NCBI GenBank assembly: GCA_024635485.1
Contig: JAGXIV010000024.1
Span: 1-64,000 of the forward strand
From: a bacterium
GTDB taxonomy: Bacteria > Patescibacteriota > Gracilibacteria > BD1-5 > UBA6164
Direction of reading: 5' to 3'
DNA: 64,000 nt
The notes below the pieces were generated by a model. It saw only the letters and a list, made by a program, of their open reading frames with translations. It ran no database searches and was not told where the DNA came from. Made by a program: the position numbers and the translations under genes. Of the stretch, positions 8,694 through 19,034 are shown piece after piece (the first letter of the stretch is position 1; every line of letters begins with the position of its first letter).

Positions 8694-11426
8694 ATGAATA
8701 GTGTATTTAAAAAACAAAAACTTACTGCTTTTACCTTAGTAGAACTCATTGTTGTTATAACTATACTTGCAATATTATGAACTATTGGATTCATATCAAT
8801 ACAAAAATATGCACAGTATGCAAGAGAGTCTCGCAGACTTTCAGACATGAAAACCATAGAAAAATGATTGGAGCTATTTAAGACATCAAATTCATATTAT
8901 CCCGATCCTGAAAACTCTACTTCAGTTACTTATAGTGGCTCAATACTCTTTACTCAATGAATTATCTGAGAAAAAGTATCTGGAACAATTCGAGTAAATC
9001 CACTTCCTGTGGATCCAATTTCAAATCTACCCTATGCTTACTCTGTTTCAGCCAATAGATTTGAATATCAAATCGCCTGAGTTTTTGAAAATCCAGTTTC
9101 TAGTATATGACTTGTGTGAACACAAGAAACCTATGCTGCAAAAAGAACAGGCTATGTTCGACTGTGATGACAATATAATTGAGTTTTAACACTGAGTAAC
9201 ACTGGATGATTGAGCTATGTTTTAGCACTCCCATCGCTCTTTACTGCAGATTTTACAAATCCAGATATTACGAGTATTTATGCAAATAGAAATATTATCA
9301 TAAATGGAGGAACAAATCTCCCAGCTCATTATTCTAGTCTCGTTTGATCAGAAGAACTTTCATATACTATGACATGAGGCGTAAATTTTTGAAATCCAAA
9401 TTTTATAGTTTTTTCATGAGATCTAGAAAGTCTTATAAATGAAGCACCTCGACTCAGTTTCTTTAAAAATTTATACAGTATCTATACGACAGGAGATACA
9501 GTAAATAATAAATATTATGATGAAATTACACAATTAAATCCTAATGTAGATCCGACAAAAGCAAAAAACTATGTTGCAGATGTAATATGATACGGAGTAG
9601 CTGGACTCTATGTCGAAAACTTTAATGATCGAGTTATCCGAGGAGCCATTGACTGGTTTAATATCTTTAGTTTTTGAGATGTTGGTTTATTATCAAACGG
9701 TATAGAAGCAATAGCTGAATGAATTAATGGTGAGATGGTTTTTTGAAGTGATGTTTGAGTAAGTATACTCAAAGATAATACGTGGAAAAATTTCACAGGA
9801 AGTAATACGGCAAATGGACTTAAAAATGATGTAGTGAGGAGAGTATATATTGATCCTGATACATGAGATTATTATTTTTCTCATAATTTATGAGTCAGTA
9901 AGTATGATGGAACGGCTTGGACTCAGTATCAATTTGGAGGTTTAATTTGAACTTCATGAGCGTGAAATGTCACAAAAGATAAGAATTGAAACTTTTGGAT
10001 ACGAACATGAAAATGACTCATCAAAATAGAAAATGGCACTATGACAGCTATCACGACAACATTGGCTGATCCAAATTTATCATGAGATTTTATTATAAAC
10101 CCAGCTAAGGATACTCTTTATATTCCTTCAAAAACTTGAGTGGTAGTTTACAACATAGATGCAAACACTTCTACTATTTATAATTATACAAACTCTGACG
10201 TATTTTGTGAGACCTGTGGTTGAAATAATGTAGTGTATGAACTACTGCTTTGAAATAACTGAGATGTTTGGATGGATAAGCATTATCAAGAATTATATAA
10301 TATGAATCTTACGACAGGGAGTGGTACAAGATATACAGATCTCAGAAATGGATCAACATTTTGAAGAACAAACAGAGCAGACTTAGCAAAGGATAATGCT
10401 TGAAAACTTCATTTTCCTACCTGAGAAAATATTTCAACATTTGATGGAACAAGCTGGTGACTCATTACTCCAGCAGATGGTATGGTAGGGTGAGAGAAAT
10501 CATTCGCTTTTTTCGATAAAAAAAATGAGCTTTGGGTTTGAAGTAGATCAGAATGAATCTCAAAATTTAATGGTTCTAACTGGACATCATATTCTGTGAG
10601 TCCTACGCTCGCAACCAATACAATCTACGATATTTATATAGACTCTGATTCTAAAGTATGGATTTGAACAGATATATGATTTTATATTATAAATACCGAT
10701 AAGACTTGGAAACTTTATAGTACTTCTAATCTTGCTTTGTCGCGAAGTGAAATAAAGCGTTTTTACGAATATAATTGAAAATTATTTTTATCTCATGGAT
10801 ATGGTATGAGTCTACTCAATCCTCAAACAATGGAAGTGATAAAAACATTTAATGAACCAGGTTGATCATTTTACACAGATACGCTTTGAGAACTCTGGCT
10901 TGCAACGTATAATTGAGTGAAAAAATATGATTGAACATCATTTAATCTAGTTTATAGTACTTGAAATTGAGATAATATACTGAGTTCAAATGTACATGAT
11001 ATGACACAAGATATTGATGGAAACTTTTGGTTTGCGACACAATCAGGTGTGAGTAAACTTGAATGAACTACTTGGGTTAACTATCCTTGAGAATACCCAA
11101 ATCAAATAGAATTCTATAATGGATCAATATTTGTAAATGGAAATAAGGGTTTAAGAAAATTTGATGGAGTCGCTTTCAAAACGTATACAAGTTCAGATTG
11201 AATTCCATCTAGTACTATAACTGATTTGATTGTAGATGATAAAGATAATCTTTGGCTATGAACTGACAAGTGAATTGCTATATATCTTCCAGAAACAGAA
11301 AAATTTAAGACCTACGATAGCACCATTGGAATAATCAATGACTCTATAAATTCAATTTTCATAAAATGAAAAGAAGTCTGGCTTGCTACAGCAGGTTGAA
11401 TTGCAAAATGAGTTTTGAAACAATAG
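8694..11426 (+). CDS. Prepilin-type N-terminus fused to a large propeller-like domain
   Basis: A 910-residue protein. Residues about 11-40 form a type III/IV prepilin signal and pilin helix: FTLVELIVVITILAIL, with the conserved Glu five residues after the presumed cleavage point. Ordinary pilins end near 150-200 residues; here the rest is a long extracellular domain. The C-terminal half has repeated units such as DIDGNFWFATQSGVSK, DKDNLWLGTDKGIAIY and KEVWLATAGGIAKG, the pattern of two-component-regulator-propeller (ligand-binding beta-propeller) blades. Asn/Asp/Trp repeats continue back to about residue 430. It is probably displayed by a type IV pilus-like machine as a tip or minor pilin adhesin; a shorter prepilin-like protein occurs at 50691. 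Function as adhesin is inference. Confidence 0.85.
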
Positions 11427-11751: not shown

Positions 11752-11782
11752 AATTTTGTAAATATAGATTTTTATCTATAAT

Positions 11783-11960
11783 GCTTCAAAGCGTTAGAGC
11801 AGCTATCCCCTGCAAGCTTGAGGAAGAACAGATTAATCTCAGTAGAACCTCACGAAGTCGCAACACTTCGATAAAAAATAAATCAAGCACAGCTTTAGGT
11901 GGTACCTTCATTGAAAAATGACCTCAAAGCATACAAACTCTTATTTTGTATGCTTTTTTT
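11783..11960 (+). promoter_or_regulatory. T-box riboswitch (isoleucine type, ultrashort stem I) controlling ilvA
   Basis: The antiterminator is a close match to the T-box consensus: GCTTTAGG (892-899 of the 11 kb block) pairs with CCTCAAAGC (11922-11930), enclosing the 7-base bulge TGGTACC (11900-11906) and an inner helix TTCATT/AATGA with GAAA loop. The mutually exclusive terminator is AAAGCATACAAA / TTTGTATGCTTT followed by a T run (11926-11960). UGGU in the bulge matches a tRNA ending A73-CCA, as expected for tRNA-Ile. Upstream, a short stem I (GCAG 11799-11802 / CTGC 11810-11813) has loop CTATCCC holding AUC, an Ile codon, at 11805-11807. It is followed by a stem with an internal loop containing GAA and AGTA (loop-E/S-turn pattern, 11821-11851) and a stem III CGAAGT/ACTTCG (11853-11870). 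Uncharged tRNA-Ile would favour readthrough into ilvA. Confidence 0.85.
11926..11960 (+). terminator. T-box regulated terminator
   Basis: Perfect 12-bp stem AAAGCATACAAA/TTTGTATGCTTT with loop CTCTTA... and a seven-T tail, immediately before the ilvA ATG. Its 5' arm shares AAAGC with the antiterminator, which is the switch. Confidence 0.85.
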
Positions 11961-13196
11961 ATGCTTACTCTCGAGAACATCACCGCAGCAAAACATAGAT
12001 TTTGAAAAGTTGTCAAAGATACTCCTTTACAGTATAGTGACCGACTTTCAAAAAAATATGGAGCTGAAATTTACCTCAAACGTGAGGATCTTCAAAAAGT
12101 GAGAAGCTACAAAATTAGAGGAGCATATAATCTCATCTCTTCCCTTTCAGACACTGAAAAACAATCTTGAGTAGTTTGTGCAAGTGCTGGAAATCACGCT
12201 CAGTGATTTGCCCTCTCTTGCGCTGAACTCAAAATACAATGAGTCGTCTATATGCCTGTAACCACTCCAGAACAAAAGGTCTATAAAACTCATCAATTTT
12301 GAGGAAAATACATTAAAATAGTACTTATAGGGGATACCTTTGATGAAGCACTTTCTGCAGCAAAACAATACGAACAAGATACGTGAGCTATTTTTGTTCA
12401 TCCATTTGATGATATGCGTATCATCACTGGTCAGGCAACGATGTGACTTGAAATTTATGAAAAACTTCCTGAACCAGACATGATTATTTGTCCGATTGGA
12501 GGAGGTTGAGTTATTTCAGGAATTATTACAGCACGAAATGTTCTTTGAAAAAATACAGAAATTATCTGAGTTGAACCAGAATGAGCTGCCAGTATGAAGA
12601 CAAGTTTAGAAAAAAATGAGAACACGACACTCAGTAAAATAGATACATTTGTAGATGGTGCCAGTGTTGCACGAGTATGAGAACATAACTATGCAATTTG
12701 TGAGGCAAATAATATCGAAGTAATCAGCGTTCCAGAAAATAGAGTCTGTTCCACTATTCTCGAGTTCCTCAGAGAAGATGGAATCGTCCTGGAACCAGCT
12801 GGAGCCATTGAATCTGACGCACTGAAATCATTGTCTGAAAGAATAAAAGGAAAGAAAATAGTCGTCATAGTTTCTGGATGAAATCTCGATTTTGAACGAC
12901 TTCCAGAAATCAAAGAGCGTTCTCTCAGGTATGAGTGAAAAAAGAGATACTACCTCGTTAAATTCCCACAGAGACCAGGCGCTCTCAAATCATTTCTTGA
13001 GTTTCTCTGACCTGATGATGATATAGCTCGTTTTGAATATATGAAAAAATCAAACCGGAATACAGCTCCTGTAATGATAGGCATAGAAGCACTGTGAAAT
13101 CAGAATTTTGAAGCAATTGAGCAAAATATGCAAGCATGAGGGTTTCAGTTTGAAAATATTACCAATAATGATCTTTATTTTAATCTTTTAGTATAG
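11961..13196 (+). CDS. ilvA: Threonine dehydratase (threonine deaminase)
   Basis: A 411-residue PLP enzyme converting threonine to 2-oxobutyrate and ammonia, the first step toward isoleucine. The PLP lysine lies in RSYKIRGAY (Lys51). The phosphate-binding glycine loop is PIGGGGVISG (about 178-187), and VSGGNLD near 305 contacts the cofactor ring; some of these glycines are TGA. The N-terminal block [19 protein letters not shown] is typical of IlvA. Residues about 320-400 form the ACT-like C-terminal regulatory domain ([20 protein letters not shown]), the short single-domain form. The ATG lies directly after the T-box terminator, so expression should respond to charged tRNA-Ile. ridA follows after 4 bases. 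No other Ile-pathway gene is in this window. Confidence 0.95.
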
Positions 13197-13200
13197 TGAT

Positions 13201-13551
13201 ATGAAGTATCCAACTGCGCTTTGACCCTATTCTCCCTTTGTGAAAGTGTGAAACTTCATATACTTTTCTGGACAAATTGGTTTATGTCCCGATACTATGA
13301 AACTAGAAGCTACAGTAGAGTCTCAAACGAAACAAGTTTGTGAAAATATTCTTTGAGTGTGTGAAGCCACTTGAGTCGAGATAGATAATATATTTAAAAC
13401 AACTATCTTTCTCACTCAAATGTGAGACTTTGCAAAAGTAAATGAAATATATGGAAAATATTTTTTACACAAGCCAGCACGAAGCTGTGTTGCTGTCAAA
13501 GAGCTCCCAGTATGAGCACAAGTTGAAATAGAATGTATAGCGTATAAATAA
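13201..13551 (+). CDS. ridA: RidA/YjgF family enamine/imine deaminase
   Basis: A 116-residue protein, a little short of the usual 125-130. It has the family blocks GPYSPFVKVGNFIYFSGQIG near the N-terminus, a central FKTTIFLTQMGDFAKVN, and the signature PARSCVAVKELPVGAQVEIE with the substrate-binding Arg94 and Glu112. RidA hydrolyses reactive 2-aminoacrylate/2-iminobutanoate set free by PLP dehydratases such as IlvA. Its position 4 bases after ilvA, behind the same T-box, matches this role well. Seven or so TGA codons are read as Gly. It is presumably a cytosolic trimer. Confidence 0.93.
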
Positions 13552-13559
13552 AAAATAGA

Positions 13560-13781
13560 ATGGAAAAAGAAAAAGTATGTCAATTATGAGGTAAAGTTCT
13601 AGAAGATTCAGAAGTGATGCGACTTCAATGCTGACTTATGAGAGAATATAATAAAAGAAAGCATTTAAAATCTCACGAGTGAGCGAAGCAATGGGTAGAT
13701 AATTATTCTGATAAGTGTAGAAAAATACTCGAAGAGTGAGTGACTGATGTACAAGATTTAACACATCAATTATACTGATAA
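13560..13781 (+). CDS. Small CxxC protein
   Basis: A 73-residue basic protein starting 8 bases after ridA, so probably the last gene of the ilvA operon. Near the N-terminus is CQLCGK, and further cysteines follow at CGLMREY and DKCRK, which could bind zinc as a small ribbon. No family is recognised. The TAA stop is formed by the first bases of a dispersed repeat (TAATATTTGTCCGAAA...), suggesting that the repeat inserted at or replaced the original 3' end. Confidence 0.65.
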
Positions 13782-13808
13782 TATTTGTCCGAAAAGACAT
13801 AAAACTAG
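13781..13808 (+). repeat. Dispersed repeat type 2, copy 1
   Basis: ATATTTGTCCGAAAAGACAT followed by AAAACTAG. Related copies are at 14938-14970 and 15367-15404. The core TTTGTCCGAAA-GACA is an imperfect palindrome (TGTC...GACA). Confidence 0.7.
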
Positions 13809-13810
13809 AT

Positions 13811-13858
13811 TCCTATCCTGAATCCTTTCCTTTAAGTCTAAAGGAAAGGGGCTACAAT
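13811..13858 (+). repeat. Palindromic repeat type 1, copy A
   Basis: The core CCTTTCCTTTA-AGTC-TAAAGGAAAGG (13824-13849) is a perfect 11-bp hairpin flanked by TCCTATCCTGAAT on the left and GGGCTACAATT on the right. It lacks a T tail, so it is not a standard terminator. It ends 8 bases before the tRNA-Ser gene. Confidence 0.75.
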
Positions 13859-13865
13859 TGATTTT

Positions 13866-13956
13866 GGAAGGGTGGCTGAGTGGTTGAAAGCGCACGCCTG
13901 GAAAGTGTGTAAACGGTATACCCGTTTCGCGAGTTCGAATCTCGTCCCTTCCTCCA
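13866..13956 (+). tRNA. tRNA-Ser (anticodon GGA)
   Basis: A class II tRNA of 91 bases including an encoded CCA. The acceptor helix is GGAAGGG/CCCTTCC, anticodon stem CACGC/GTGTG with loop CTGGAAA (anticodon GGA, reading UCC/UCU), long variable arm AAACGG/CCGTTT, and T arm GCGAG-TTCGAAT-CTCGT. The discriminator appears to be U73 rather than the G73 usual for serine tRNAs. Confidence 0.95.
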
Positions 13957-14040
13957 TACATACAAAACTAGGACGTGATGAGAAGTTTAAGCCATCGGGT
14001 AAATCTCATCTCGACCACAATTTTATTATTAAAAAAATAT

Positions 14041-14274
14041 ATGACTGCAGACTCCTACTCTGATTTTCTCGAAAAACTTCGAGATGCCCTCGAAAATAAA
14101 CAAAAACAAAGTGTTGATTATCTTCTAGAATATGCTTTTAGTGGAGCACTTGCACAGGATGAAGTTGACGCGATTGAGGATATAATCTCAGAAGCAACTC
14201 TCTATCTCGAGCTCTGAGAAGATGATTATAGAGAAACAGCTATTAAATATATTGATAAGCTCGAAGAAAATTAG
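14041..14274 (+). CDS. Small acidic hypothetical protein
   Basis: A 77-residue, strongly acidic helical protein with one TGA-Gly near the C-terminus. The frame is also open upstream to an ATG at 13975, but that start lies 19 bases after the tRNA and adds an unlikely 22-residue extension, so ATG at 14041 is preferred. No family is recognised. It sits between tRNA-Ser and the repeat cluster. Confidence 0.6.
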
Positions 14275-14310
14275 AGTATTGCTTGCTTGAATTGATTTTT
14301 TTTTAATATT

Positions 14311-14357
14311 CCTCGCTTGAATTCTCTCCTTTTAGACAAAAGGAAAGAGGCTGCATA
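14311..14357 (+). repeat. Palindromic repeat type 1, copy B (left flank of DUF559 gene)
   Basis: CCTCGCTTGAATTCTCTCCT followed by TTTAGACAAAAGGAAAGAGGCTGCATAAT. The hairpin is CTCCTTTT/AAAAGGAAAG. Its right end GAAAGAGGCTGCA-AATTT reappears inverted at 14736-14755. Confidence 0.75.
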
Positions 14358-14380
14358 ATTTGTTCTTGAATAATATAAAC

Positions 14381-14755
14381 ATGATAGTACCTGATATTAT
14401 AAAACAAGCTGCGAGAGATTTACGTAAGAATATGACTCCAGCTGAACAACATTTATGGGAATATATAAAATCTTGAAAGTTAGAGTGAAAAAACTTTTTG
14501 AAACAAAAACCTATATTTATGTTCGAAGAAGATTCCTGATTTCCTCGATATGTAATAGCTGATTTCATTTGTCTTGAATATAAACTCGTTATAGAGATTG
14601 ATGGGAATATTCACAATACTCCTGAAGTATTAGAACTAGATATATTCAAACAAGAAATGTTATTTGAAAAATGATACACAATATTACGATTTAGAAATGA
14701 AGAAGTACTACATAATATTGATAAAGTTTTGAGTAAAATTGCAGCCTCTTTCTAA
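14381..14755 (+). CDS. DUF559 family endonuclease-like protein
   Basis: A 124-residue protein with the DUF559 signature: N-terminal ARDLRKNMTPAEQHLWEYIK, a central core ADFICLEYKLVIEIDG (Asp61, Glu72, Asp74, Gly75) and the C-terminal GYTILRFRNEEVL. DUF559 is related to very-short-patch-repair (Vsr) and other PD-(D/E)xK-type nucleases, so DNA cleavage or nicking is expected but has not been shown for most members. The last codons (KIAASF and the stop) coincide with an inverted arm of the surrounding palindromic repeat, and the gene start follows copy B by 24 bases. The gene is thus bracketed by inverted repeat arms, which suggests a small mobile or repeat-associated unit. Confidence 0.85.
14736..14755 (-). 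repeat. Partial inverted copy of type 1 repeat overlapping the DUF559 gene end
   Basis: AAAATTGCAGCCTCTTTC is the reverse complement of the right end of copy B (GAAAGAGGCTGCAT-AATTT) and is also found in copy D. It encodes the last six residues of the DUF559 protein. Confidence 0.7.
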
Positions 14756-14760
14756 ATATT

Positions 14761-14929
14761 CTTCCTCTGAATCTCCTCATTTTATAAAAAATGAAGAGGT
14801 CTCCACACTAGACTCCTAGAAAAATTGCAGCCTCTTTCCTTTAGACTTAAAGGAAAGAATTCAAGATAGGAATGGTGTAATATTCCTCACCTGAATCCTC
14901 TCCTTTTATAAAAAAGGAAAGGGGCTACA
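14761..14929. repeat. Palindromic repeat type 1, copies C, D (inverted) and E
   Basis: Copy C at 14761-14806 (CTCCTCATTTTATAAAAAAT with GAAGAGG), copy D at 14823-14874 in reverse orientation (ATTGCAGCCTCTTTCCTTTA...TAAAGGAAAGAATTC), and copy E at 14882-14929 (CCTGAATCCTCTCCTTTTAT, then AAAAAAGGAAAGGGGCTACA). Copy D is nearly the reverse complement of copy A 1 kb away. No gene lies in this 170-base stretch. Confidence 0.75.
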
Positions 14930-14937
14930 AGAGAGAG

Positions 14938-14970
14938 TTAGTCCGAAAAGACACAAACTAAAATATTTTG
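14938..14970 (+). repeat. Dispersed repeat type 2, copy 2
   Basis: TTAGTCCGAAAAGACACAAA followed by CTAAAATATTTTG. It directly follows type 1 copy E, in the same neighbourhood relation as copy 1 has to copy A but in the opposite order. Confidence 0.65.
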
Positions 14971-14993
14971 AGAACAGAAATAAATAGAAAATT

Positions 14994-15368
14994 ATGGAAA
15001 TATTAGAACACCTAGAAAGGAAATTACAAAATCCAAAAAATCGTTATGATTTAAAAGTATTACAAGAACTACTCCACGAAGATTTTGAAGAAATTGGATA
15101 TTCTTGAAATACTCATACCAGAGAATCTACCATTGCTTCTCTCACTCAAGAAATAACGTGAGAATCTTCGATTCACTCACAAGAGTATGAATTTCATTTA
15201 CTCAGCAATGAATTATCTCAAGTAATTTACAAATCAGTAGAAAAATGAGCCAACTGAGAATATACAAGATATACAAAACGGATGTCTCTCTGGATTCAAG
15301 AAAATAATACTTGGAAACTCAGATATCATCAAGCAACTCCAACAGAACAATTTGAAATTATACTCTAA
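14994..15368 (+). CDS. SnoaL/NTF2-like (DUF4440-type) protein
   Basis: A 124-residue cytosolic protein. Its order of elements (HLERKLQNPKNRYDLKVLQELL at the N-terminus, a FxEIGYSG turn, beta-rich centre and C-terminal WIQENNTWKLRYHQATP) matches small NTF2-fold proteins annotated as nuclear transport factor 2/DUF4440, some of which act on small ligands. No catalytic residue can be assigned. Four TGA codons read as Gly. It lies between type 2 repeats; its TAA stop is the start of copy 3, just as the 13560 gene ends in copy 1. Confidence 0.75.
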
Positions 15369-15404
15369 TATTTGTCCGAAACGACACAAAACTATAATAT
15401 TTTG
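15367..15404 (+). repeat. Dispersed repeat type 2, copy 3
   Basis: AATATTTGTCCGAAACGACA followed by CAAAACTATAATATTTTG, overlapping the stop codon of the preceding gene. Copies 1 and 3 share 21 of the first 23 bases. Confidence 0.7.
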
Positions 15405-15434
15405 AAATTAGAAATAATATAATTAATAAATACT

Positions 15435-15935
15435 ATGAAAAAAATATTATTACTGACATGGTTTTGAATAAATTTCATAATAGTTGCATTTCTATTTTGA
15501 ATATACAATTCTTGAATAATTACTGTTGATTACGCATACATATTAATCTTTTGCATTAACTTTATATTAGTAATTATTTTCTGATTTATTTTATTAATCA
15601 AATCTAGTAATAAAAATTTAGAAAAAGAAATACAGATTTACCGAGAAGAAAAAAATAAATTTACAGGTGAAAAAAGAAAAATAATTAAAGAAGAAAGTGA
15701 TATCAAATCTCAAGAAAATATTAGAAATTTAATTTATATTTTTATTTTCATACTAGTAATTTCAATATTATGAGAATACTGGGAACCTATTAGTAATATT
15801 TTATTATGAATAATATTCTTAGTATTTTGATGAATTTGAAGCGCTATTAATTGATTAACTTCAATTAAATGACTACTTTTTATAATAGTTGTATTACTTT
15901 TTATAATTATAAAAAAATTAAATAATAATAATTAA
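15435..15935 (+). CDS. Small membrane protein, unknown
   Basis: A 166-residue protein with four likely transmembrane helices arranged as two pairs (about residues 4-30, 38-55, 98-120, 125-160) separated by a highly charged cytoplasmic stretch rich in Lys/Glu (about 58-92). It is unusually AT-rich even for this genome (many ATA, TTA and AAT codons), and TGA-Gly is frequent in the hydrophobic parts. No family is recognised. It ends 12 bases before ileS, so it might share its transcript. Confidence 0.7.
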
Positions 15936-15947
15936 CCCAACCCACCT

Positions 15948-18900
15948 ATGAAATTCCCAAAAGTAAACCAAAAACAATCGTTTCCAGCTTTGGAAGAAGA
16001 CGTGCTAAAATTCTGGAAGGAGAATAATACCTTTCAGAAATCTATTGACCAGAGACCAGAATCAAATCCCTATAGATTTTATGATGGACCTCCATTTATT
16101 ACTGGAACTCCACACTACGGTTCCCTGCTCTCAAGTATCGTAAAAGATATCGTACCACGATATCATACGATGCAAGGAAAACGAGTGGAACGAAAGTGGG
16201 GTTGGGACTGTCATGGTCTTCCGATTGAAGAAAAAGTACAAAAAAAACTCGACCTCAAATCAAATAAAGATATCGAAGAACTGGGAGTAGAAAAATTTAT
16301 CGAAGAATGCTATACCTATACAAAAGAGGTTTCTTCAGAGTGGGATTGGTATATCGACCATATTGGACGATGGGTTGATATGGATAATGCCTACAGAACG
16401 ATGGACCAGGATTATATGGAATCCGTTCTTTGGGTGTTTAAACAAATGCATGAAAAAGGAAAAGTTTATAAAGGTCGAAGAGTTTCACTCTATTCATGGA
16501 AACTCTCAACTCCTATTTCAAACTTCGAAGTTGCGATGGATGACTCCTATGAAGAAGTCTCTGATCCAGCGGTTACTGTGATGTTCCCTCTCACACAAAG
16601 TCATAAACATGTACAAGAATGAGATTATATCATCGCATGGACAACCACTCCTTGGACGATTCCTGCTCATATGAGTATGGCTCTCAATAAAAATCTCTCC
16701 TATTCACGAGTGAGTTCAGAAGATAAAATATATATTCTCGCAACTGCACGAGTAGAAACCGTATTTAAAGGACGAGAATATGAAATTCTTGAGAGTTTTA
16801 TGGGGAGTGACCTTATTGGACTCAAATACACTCCTCCATTTGATTTCTATGTTGGTAAAGTAGATCCAGAGAAGAATCACAAAATACTACATGCTGATTT
16901 TATCACAGATACAGATGGGACGTGAGTCGGTCATCAAGCCCCAGAGTTTGGTGAGGTGGATTTTCAGCTCGCTCAAAAAGAAGGAGTGCATATTTCAACA
17001 GCCCTCGATAATGCTGGGAATTATACAGAAGAAATTCCTGATTATGAAGGAATGCACTACCAAGCAGCCAATGATGTCGTAGCTGAAAAACTCAAAGAGT
17101 TTGGACTGCTGTTCAAAAAAGAATCAATCAACCATAGAGTAGCGATGTGTCCTCGCTCTGGAACGAAGCTTATTTATAAAGCGCAAGACTCTTGGTTTAT
17201 TAATATCCAAGAAATGAAAGACAGACTCCTTGCTGAAAACGAAGGAATCAACTGGCAGCCAAATCATTTGAAACATGGTCAATTCCTCAAATCAGTAGAA
17301 TCAGCACCAGATTGGTGTATTTCTCGAACGAGATACTGGGGAACTCCGATGCCTATTTGGATGGGAACAGACGTTGAAGGAAATGAAGTAGATATGAAGG
17401 TATTTGGTTCAAAAGCTGAAATCGAAGCAGCATCTGGAATGACGGTGACTAATTTACACCGACCTTATATCGATGATATTACATGGAAGGAGGGAGAGAT
17501 TACCTATACACGGCTTCCTGAAGTACTTGATGTGTGGATGGATTCAGGTTCTATGCCATATGCTCAAATGCATTATCCATTTGAAAATAAAGCTCCAATG
17601 GAAAGCTCATACCCTGCTGACTTTATCGTAGAATATATCGGTCAAGTTCGAGCGTGGTTTTATGTAATGCATGTTGTTTGAGTAGCTCTCTTTGATAAAC
17701 GAGCATTTACCAATGTTATCACAACAGGGATAGTGATGGGTTCTGATGGAAGAAAGATGTCTAAATCATACGGGAACTATCCAGATCCTAAAGTAACGAT
17801 TCAAAAATATGGAGCTGATGCTATTAGATTTTATATGGCAAACTCCCCTCTCTTAAATGGAGGAAATATGGATTTCAAAGAAGAAGGAATCGTAGAAGTC
17901 ATCAAAAAAGTAATTCTTCCACTCTGGAATACTTATAGTTTCTTCACAACCTACGCAAATATAGATAATTTTGTTCCAACAGGAAAATACACTCCGGAAA
18001 ATCCTCTCGATGTATGGATTATTTCAGAAACAAACCAACTCATATCCGATGTAACGAAATGAATGGAAAGCTATGAAGTAACAGAAGCAACTCGTCCCAT
18101 TGTCCATTTTATGGATAATCTCACAAACTGGTATATCAGAAGAAGTCGAAAACGATTCTGGAAATCAGAAAATGACGGAGACAAGATGCAGGCTTATGAA
18201 ACACTCTATGAAGTACTCGTAACGCTTACAAAAGTTATGGCTCCATTCACTCCATTTGTAACTGAAAATATATATAAGAGTCTTACAGGAAATGAATCTG
18301 TCCATCTGGAAGACTTTCCTCTCGCAGATACTAAACTTATTGATTCAGAGCTCAATGAAGCCATGGATATCTGCCAAAAGGTTATTAATCTTGGGCTTTC
18401 ACTGCGAACTGCTCAAAAGATTAGAGTACGTCAACCACTTCAGTCTATTTCTATCGGATTTGATTTATCAGATTATTATAAAGAGATTATCAAAGAAGAA
18501 CTGAATGTAAAAGCCGTGAATACCGTAGATTCTAGTAGTATCGCTCAAAAAATCTGTAAACCAAATGGTCGACTTATCTGACCAAAATTTGGAAAAGATG
18601 TGAAAAATATTATCTCTGAAGCGAAAAGTGGTAACTTTGAAATTATAGATGAAAATACTGTTAAAGTTTGAGAATTCACGCTTGAAGGAGATGAATTTGA
18701 AATAGCCTATGTAACTGATGGAGAAAATGATAATATAGAATCTGGATTTGGAATGGTAATTGCTATGGATTTAGAAATAACTCCAGATTTACAAATTGAG
18801 GGATACGCTCGAGATATCGTTCGTCATATTCAAGAAGCTCGAAAAGAAGCCGGATATCAAGTAGATGATAGAATTAAAATAAATATCATCACTCCACAAT

Positions 18901-19034
18901 TAGACGCTATATTAAAAAGCTATGATATCGCTTCTGAGACACTTTCGACACTCGATACGAGTTTAGACTCATGAGATATAGAAAAGGAGCTTGAAGTCGG
19001 AGAAAACACTGCTAAAATTATTCTTAAAAAATAA
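15948..19034 (+). CDS. ileS: Isoleucyl-tRNA synthetase
   Basis: A 1028-residue class I synthetase that charges tRNA-Ile. The HIGH-like motif is GTPHYGS (about residues 54-60), preceded by the typical FYDGPPFI. GWDCHGLPIE follows, and the KMSKS loop is GRKMSKSYGN (about 600-609). The long insertion between them is the CP1 editing domain (WTTTPWTIPAHMSMALN). The C-terminal part has the tRNA-anticodon domain WYIRRSRKRFWKS and a further extension, so the overall type is the longer, eukaryote/archaea-like IleRS clade often seen in bacteria as the second type. TGA-Gly occurs, though less often than in other genes (GGA is common). The HAD-like gene follows after 5 bases. It could feed back on the ilvA T-box through tRNA-Ile charging. 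Confidence 0.95.

Follow-up and report, generated by a model that had tools for sequence, protein, structure and literature searches.

Transcriptional T-box riboswitches generally need a long stem I bearing the IDTM, and the expendability of this part has been described as a trait of the translational ones (PMC7583486). Ultrashort ileS T-boxes are known from Nocardia farcinica and Mycobacterium tuberculosis (PMC7583486, PMC10651847), and the class II model of the T-box database was applied to Actinobacteria and truncated class I matches only (PMC7778990). No paper linking T-boxes with Gracilibacteria, Patescibacteria or Saccharibacteria was found in the open-access literature; a prior description elsewhere is possible. 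The leader studied here lies in a window of 64,000 nt (the whole stretch of DNA that was analysed), and comparison with related leaders makes it very probable that it is an Ile-specific ultrashort T-box riboswitch without the tRNA-elbow-binding end of stem I, coupled to a terminator and reading through ilvA-ridA to ileS. As a T-box it is of a known kind; what is new, judging from the comparisons below, is the combination of an ultrashort form, lacking the elbow-binding domain, with a predicted action on transcription.

The leader extends on the + strand from about position 11789, where stem I begins, to 11960, the last U of the terminator run. A probable promoter precedes it (11756-11782, +), composed of TTGTAA (11756-11761), a 15-nt spacer and a perfect TATAAT (11777-11782), and 58 of 101 homologous leaders have a TANRAT box that ends 2-20 nt 5' of stem I, whereas shuffling of the upstream sequence gave 20 +/- 4. 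Because of this hexamer and the TANRAT enrichment, transcription most likely starts at about stem I, with no long stem I concealed upstream. Farther upstream, positions 8694-11426 encode a large protein with an N-terminal pilin-type methylation motif and two-component-regulator propeller repeats.

The ultrashort stem I (31 nt, 11789-11819, +) comprises an AAGC/GCUU base, a K-turn-like motif (GUUAGA / AA, the 3' side being A-A instead of G-A) and a GCAG/CUGC helix closed by the 7-nt apical loop CUAUCCC, which gives the specifier hairpin GCAG-CUAUCCC-CUGC. The K-turn was assigned from the sequence motif alone, and the specifier hairpin itself covaries. The specifier AUC (Ile) occupies 11805-11807 (+). 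The base 3' of it, at 11808, is C in the window, whereas most relatives have A, among them genome G005 with its near-identical ilvA leader. Stem II (11820-11851, +) pairs GAGG with CCUC and AGA with UCU around an S-turn-like internal loop (AAGAAC / CAGUAGAA), and is followed by the stem IIA hairpin CGAAGU...ACUUCG (11853-11870, +; helix 5, covarying). The antiterminator (11892-11930, +; covarying helices 6-8) is formed by helix A2 (GCUUUAGG/CCUCAAAGC) and helix A1 (UCAU/AUGA) around the T-box bulge UGGUACC (11900-11906, +), whose UGGU is complementary to the ACCA-3' of tRNA-Ile (A73); an exact match to GGTGGNACC occurs once in the window, at 11898. The intrinsic terminator AAAGCAUACAAA...UUUGUAUGCUUUUUUU (11926-11960, +) ends with seven U immediately 5' of the ATG at 11961 and has AAAGC (11926-11930) in common with the antiterminator, so that the two structures are mutually exclusive; folded in isolation, they reached -11.7 kcal/mol (terminator) and -8.4 kcal/mol (antiterminator).

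Folding of the single sequence gave z = -0.62 when the terminator was left out and z = -1.94 when it was included, and the proposed structure did not appear. The minimum-energy fold differed from it, with stem I and the antiterminator absent as drawn, and was not used as evidence. The structural support comes from comparison. A pattern search with AGGTGGNACC, followed by inspection of the matches, yielded 17 leaders of one plan (16 of them from one family), which were used with a hand-drawn structure to build a covariance model. RNAalifold, run on a plain MAFFT alignment of these 17 leaders, detected two-sided changes in 16 of 27 pairs. For 101 leaders of the order of the window, 95.4% of the pair cells were standard, compared with 36-50% in slid-partner controls, two-sided changes occurred in 31 of 34 pairs, and the covariation score was 0.603 versus 0.06-0.12 with slid partners. 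A wider set of 86 leaders, nearly all from elsewhere in the class or phylum, gave 92.1% standard pairs, two-sided changes in 34 of 34 and a score of 0.677. Both alignments lean towards the pairs of the model, since they were fitted to it, but an effect this large makes covariation in these sequences hardly doubtful. The stem I hairpin pairs covary (CG:55 UA:45 and GC:42 AU:39 CG:15), the nearly invariant GAAGAA and AGUAGA of stem II lie within a covarying stem, and the antiterminator helices covary in the order alignment and in the wider set. The linker between stem IIA and the antiterminator is A-rich and showed no covarying pairs that would represent a stem III; stem IIA covaries, and a mutual-information scan of all columns, in which the helices ranked top, revealed no prominent pseudoknot partner for stem IIA/B. 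Recurrence in the order and this very strong covariation confirm, at the level of sequence comparison, that the element is a real T-box, beyond chance.

The model, with which the window element scores 130 bits, found the element in 67 of the 77 order genomes, many of which have two copies, in 81 of 288 genomes at class level, and in 88 of 380 genomes sampled across the phylum, Patescibacteria (E <= 0.01). Named records with matches were Candidatus Altimarinus (placed by NCBI in Candidatus Altimarinota, Patescibacteria group), Saccharibacteria, Collierbacteria and, weakly, CPR2. A pattern scan across contigs returned nine loci: the model scored well in six of the seven Patescibacteria records and weakly in one, and the loci from Spirochaetia and Bacteriovoracaceae had no model match and were taken as chance. 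Very weak model matches at G075:C30, G031:C49 and G048:C15 resemble coding sequence and were rejected. Rfam release 15 reported no T-box in the window even at E = 10, only unrelated weak matches, and its T-box model had no members above the cut-off either in 60 relatives or in 20 loci bearing such leaders (17 of the window type and three of the Gly type described below). From these matches the element is assigned to a family found across the phylum, with specificities for several amino acids, and is not a lone oddity.

Specifiers were surveyed at 186 loci with an automatic reader, which left about 20 loci unparsed; a few loci disagree with the pattern. Directly 5' of ileS the triplet AUC was read in 57 cases, and it stood before other genes in 50; AAC preceded aspS 34 times, GAC preceded aspS four times and GUC preceded valS seven times; both serS leaders read UCC by eye. 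The triplet is part of an apical loop of 6-7 nt, usually with A as the next base, and varies among AUC, AAC, GAC, GUC and UCC with the downstream synthetase. Of 70 readable AUC leaders, 66 have U as the variable base of the bulge, and of 38 AAC leaders, 35 have C, so that specifier, downstream gene and bulge co-vary (AUC-ileS-UGGU, AAC-aspS-UGGC, GUC-valS, UCC-serS), and the tRNAs of the genome itself fit (tRNA-Ile with GAU and A73, tRNA-Asn with GUU and G73). The only strong signal in the mutual-information scan that is not a base pair, ranking 9 of all column pairs, links the middle base of the specifier with the N of the UGGN bulge; part of it reflects the division into ileS and aspS leaders, but no other unpaired columns separate these groups so strongly. 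Such a signal is expected if one tRNA reads both sites, and the simplest reading of the alignment is that it arises through the tRNA (Ile A73, Asn G73). No AsnRS above the cut-off was found among the 77 order genomes; AspRS therefore presumably charges tRNA-Asn too, which would make an Asn sensor on aspS sensible.

Other loci broaden this picture. The second window-type element of the same genome (L046 / L082, C37:18288-18436) is intact, carries AAC and precedes aspS, and one relative (L035/L097) has GAC in place of AAC. Enlarged loops such as GATTAATGTCAC, with GUC near the 3' end, occur at L110, L117, L119, L122, L135, L250 and L253, mostly before valS. A smaller second T-box type, mostly before glyS (GlyRS), has an apical loop U-GGN-A, a terminator, no stem II and a bulge UGGA that fits U73 of tRNA-Gly, some of these elements also being without stem III; it was found at L323:1978-2098 (-), which is C29:93776-93893 (-) of the same genome, and in relatives (L001-L011, L043, L044, L209, L327). 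These Gly-type leaders were aligned with one another.

The original prediction, made from the letters of this stretch, had proposed a T-box with an AUC specifier, an ultrashort stem I, an S-turn-like stem II, a transcriptional terminator and a likeness to the actinobacterial ileS T-boxes. Its coordinates hold, the structural parts were all borne out by the features and covariation described above, the likeness holds in that stem I and stem II follow the same plan, and AUC has no better alternative as specifier. A covariance-model search of related genomes had been proposed, and recovered the element in most of the order; a lack of covariation in related leaders, named there as speaking against the T-box, is not what the alignments showed. 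The genome had also been placed in a candidate phylum reading code 25, in agreement with the TGA codons read as Gly in ilvA (17) and ileS (7).

The proposed mechanism follows the general one of T-boxes. RNA polymerase would start almost at stem I, and the AUC of the apical loop would pair with the GAU anticodon of tRNA-Ile, while the K-turn-like base would allow docking of stem I onto the stem II S-turn, which would brace the codon-anticodon helix, as suggested by the Nocardia and Mycobacterium ileS structures. With uncharged tRNA-Ile, the 3' ACCA would pair with the UGGU of the bulge and hold the antiterminator, so that transcription would continue as a single transcript via ilvA-ridA to ileS, 4 kb downstream; with charged tRNA-Ile, the terminator would form, a charging sense that we infer from other T-boxes.

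Downstream of the element, all on the + strand, are ilvA (11961-13196), which is lineage-specific as first gene and encodes a complete threonine ammonia-lyase with a C-terminal regulatory domain (code 25), ridA of the Rid family (13201-13551), a tRNA-Ser gene (GGA, 13866-13956), small genes and ileS (15948-19034), and no further + strand terminator was found between 11960 and ileS. The interval between element and ileS (13201-15947 in the window; loci L303-L322) is a hot spot of co-directional cargo that differs by genus (NUDIX, CYTH-like, DUF559, Rid, tRNA genes). The original prediction had taken ilvA as the controlled gene, and it is an unlikely alternative that the T-box controls ilvA-ridA only, ileS being expressed from its own promoter and the gene order being coincidental. 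The gap of about 4 kb, with its tRNA gene and several promoter-like hexamers 5' of ileS, speaks for this, as does locus L322 of a second genus, where ilvA-ridA again lies between element and ileS. However, the element was found 47-7310 nt upstream of ileS and on the same strand in 50 of the 62 genomes with a mapped ileS N-terminus (the other 12 had it only on another contig, in seven cases, some of AAC type, or yielded none, in five), with unrelated genes in between: the intervening ORFs are 93% co-directional by length and their content varies freely. Outside the order the element is mostly directly 5' of ileS, and ten ilvA homologues outside the genus had no T-box directly upstream. The genus also has no ilvD, so that IlvA has no complete isoleucine pathway to belong to. 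From same-strand ileS downstream, the variable genes between and the ilvA genes elsewhere without the element directly upstream, we conclude on comparative grounds that this is an ileS leader, that ilvA-ridA would have entered the interval, and that ilvA is a local passenger. T-box operons in which the synthetase is not the first gene have been described (PMC2494555), and ileS may have its own promoter in addition, given the tRNA gene and promoter-like sites in the gap.

For an ileS leader, a translational (class II) T-box as in Actinobacteria, with the following hairpin incidental, might be suggested by the stem I and stem II plan shared with the Nocardia ileS T-box (PMC10651847), but it is very unlikely, considering that the window terminator ends in its seven U just 5' of the ATG and that a terminator overlapping the antiterminator strand lies 3' of 96 of 100 order elements, compared with 26 of 100 in shuffled sequence. 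Transcriptional control is therefore the supported mode in the order; outside it, the same scan found a terminator after 58 of 86 elements, so that other modes may exist there. That the stretch encodes an attenuating leader peptide or extends IlvA by 60 residues at the N-terminus hardly merits belief, even though a frame is open from ATG 11781 into ilvA under code 25 (ORF 11781-13196, 471 aa) with AUC in frame, since the leaders of ilvA relatives are 142, 144 and 147 nt long, differences not divisible by three, substitutions track the stems, Ile codons occur only in isolation, and the same RNA precedes aspS, valS and serS. A decayed T-box that has lost switching in this strain, as the C for A after the specifier and the 3' A-A of the K-turn-like motif in place of G-A could indicate, is likewise highly improbable: all helices and the specifier are intact, as are the bulge, the terminator and the -10 box, the element scores 130 bits, and the aspS element of the strain is intact too. 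The terminator-coupled, Ile-specific T-box for ileS thus remains the preferred reading.

Beyond this locus, we consider it somewhat probable that the standard T-box of Patescibacteria is an ultrashort one that has no elbow-binding domain, acts on transcription and serves five amino acids or more (Ile, Asn, Asp, Val and Ser among them), alongside a smaller Gly form without stem II. If so, the IDTM would not be required for co-transcriptional tRNA sensing, and aspS could be under a T-box that senses tRNA-Asn in genomes without AsnRS. So large a family of naturally short T-boxes coupled to terminators would contradict the long-stem-I rule (PMC7583486), provide compact natural RNAs for kinetic and structural studies, extend T-boxes to a very large uncultured bacterial group where the standard Rfam model misses them, and bring tRNA-based functional annotation to Patescibacteria.

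Among known systems, the element has the general T-box features of a gene-matched specifier, a UGGN whose N fits the discriminator base, and A1/A2 helices around the bulge. With the canonical transcriptional T-boxes of class I (RF00230, mainly Firmicutes) it shares the specifier, the UGGN-ACC bulge, an antiterminator exclusive with a terminator and the control of aminoacyl-tRNA synthetase genes, but it lacks the long IDTM-bearing stem I and stem III, its specifier is apical whereas that of RF00230 lies in an internal loop, and the members of its family that were scanned fall below the Rfam gathering threshold. The glyQS-type T-boxes have no stem II; the small glyS elements of the same genomes, which read GGN, are likewise without it and also without a long stem I, a type to which the window element does not belong. 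With the ultrashort ileS T-boxes of N. farcinica and M. tuberculosis (PMC7583486, PMC10651847), class II in plan, it shares a short stem I with a K-turn-like motif and an apical-loop specifier, an S-turn stem II, a stem IIA, the lack of an elbow-binding IDTM and the ileS target. In contrast to these, which sequester the Shine-Dalgarno sequence, the window family is predicted to terminate transcription, is without stem III, has a compact antiterminator and several specificities, and belongs to Patescibacteria. Since the general T-box features are present and both the IDTM and stem III of class I and the translational mode of class II are absent, the element is assigned as a variant of the T-box.
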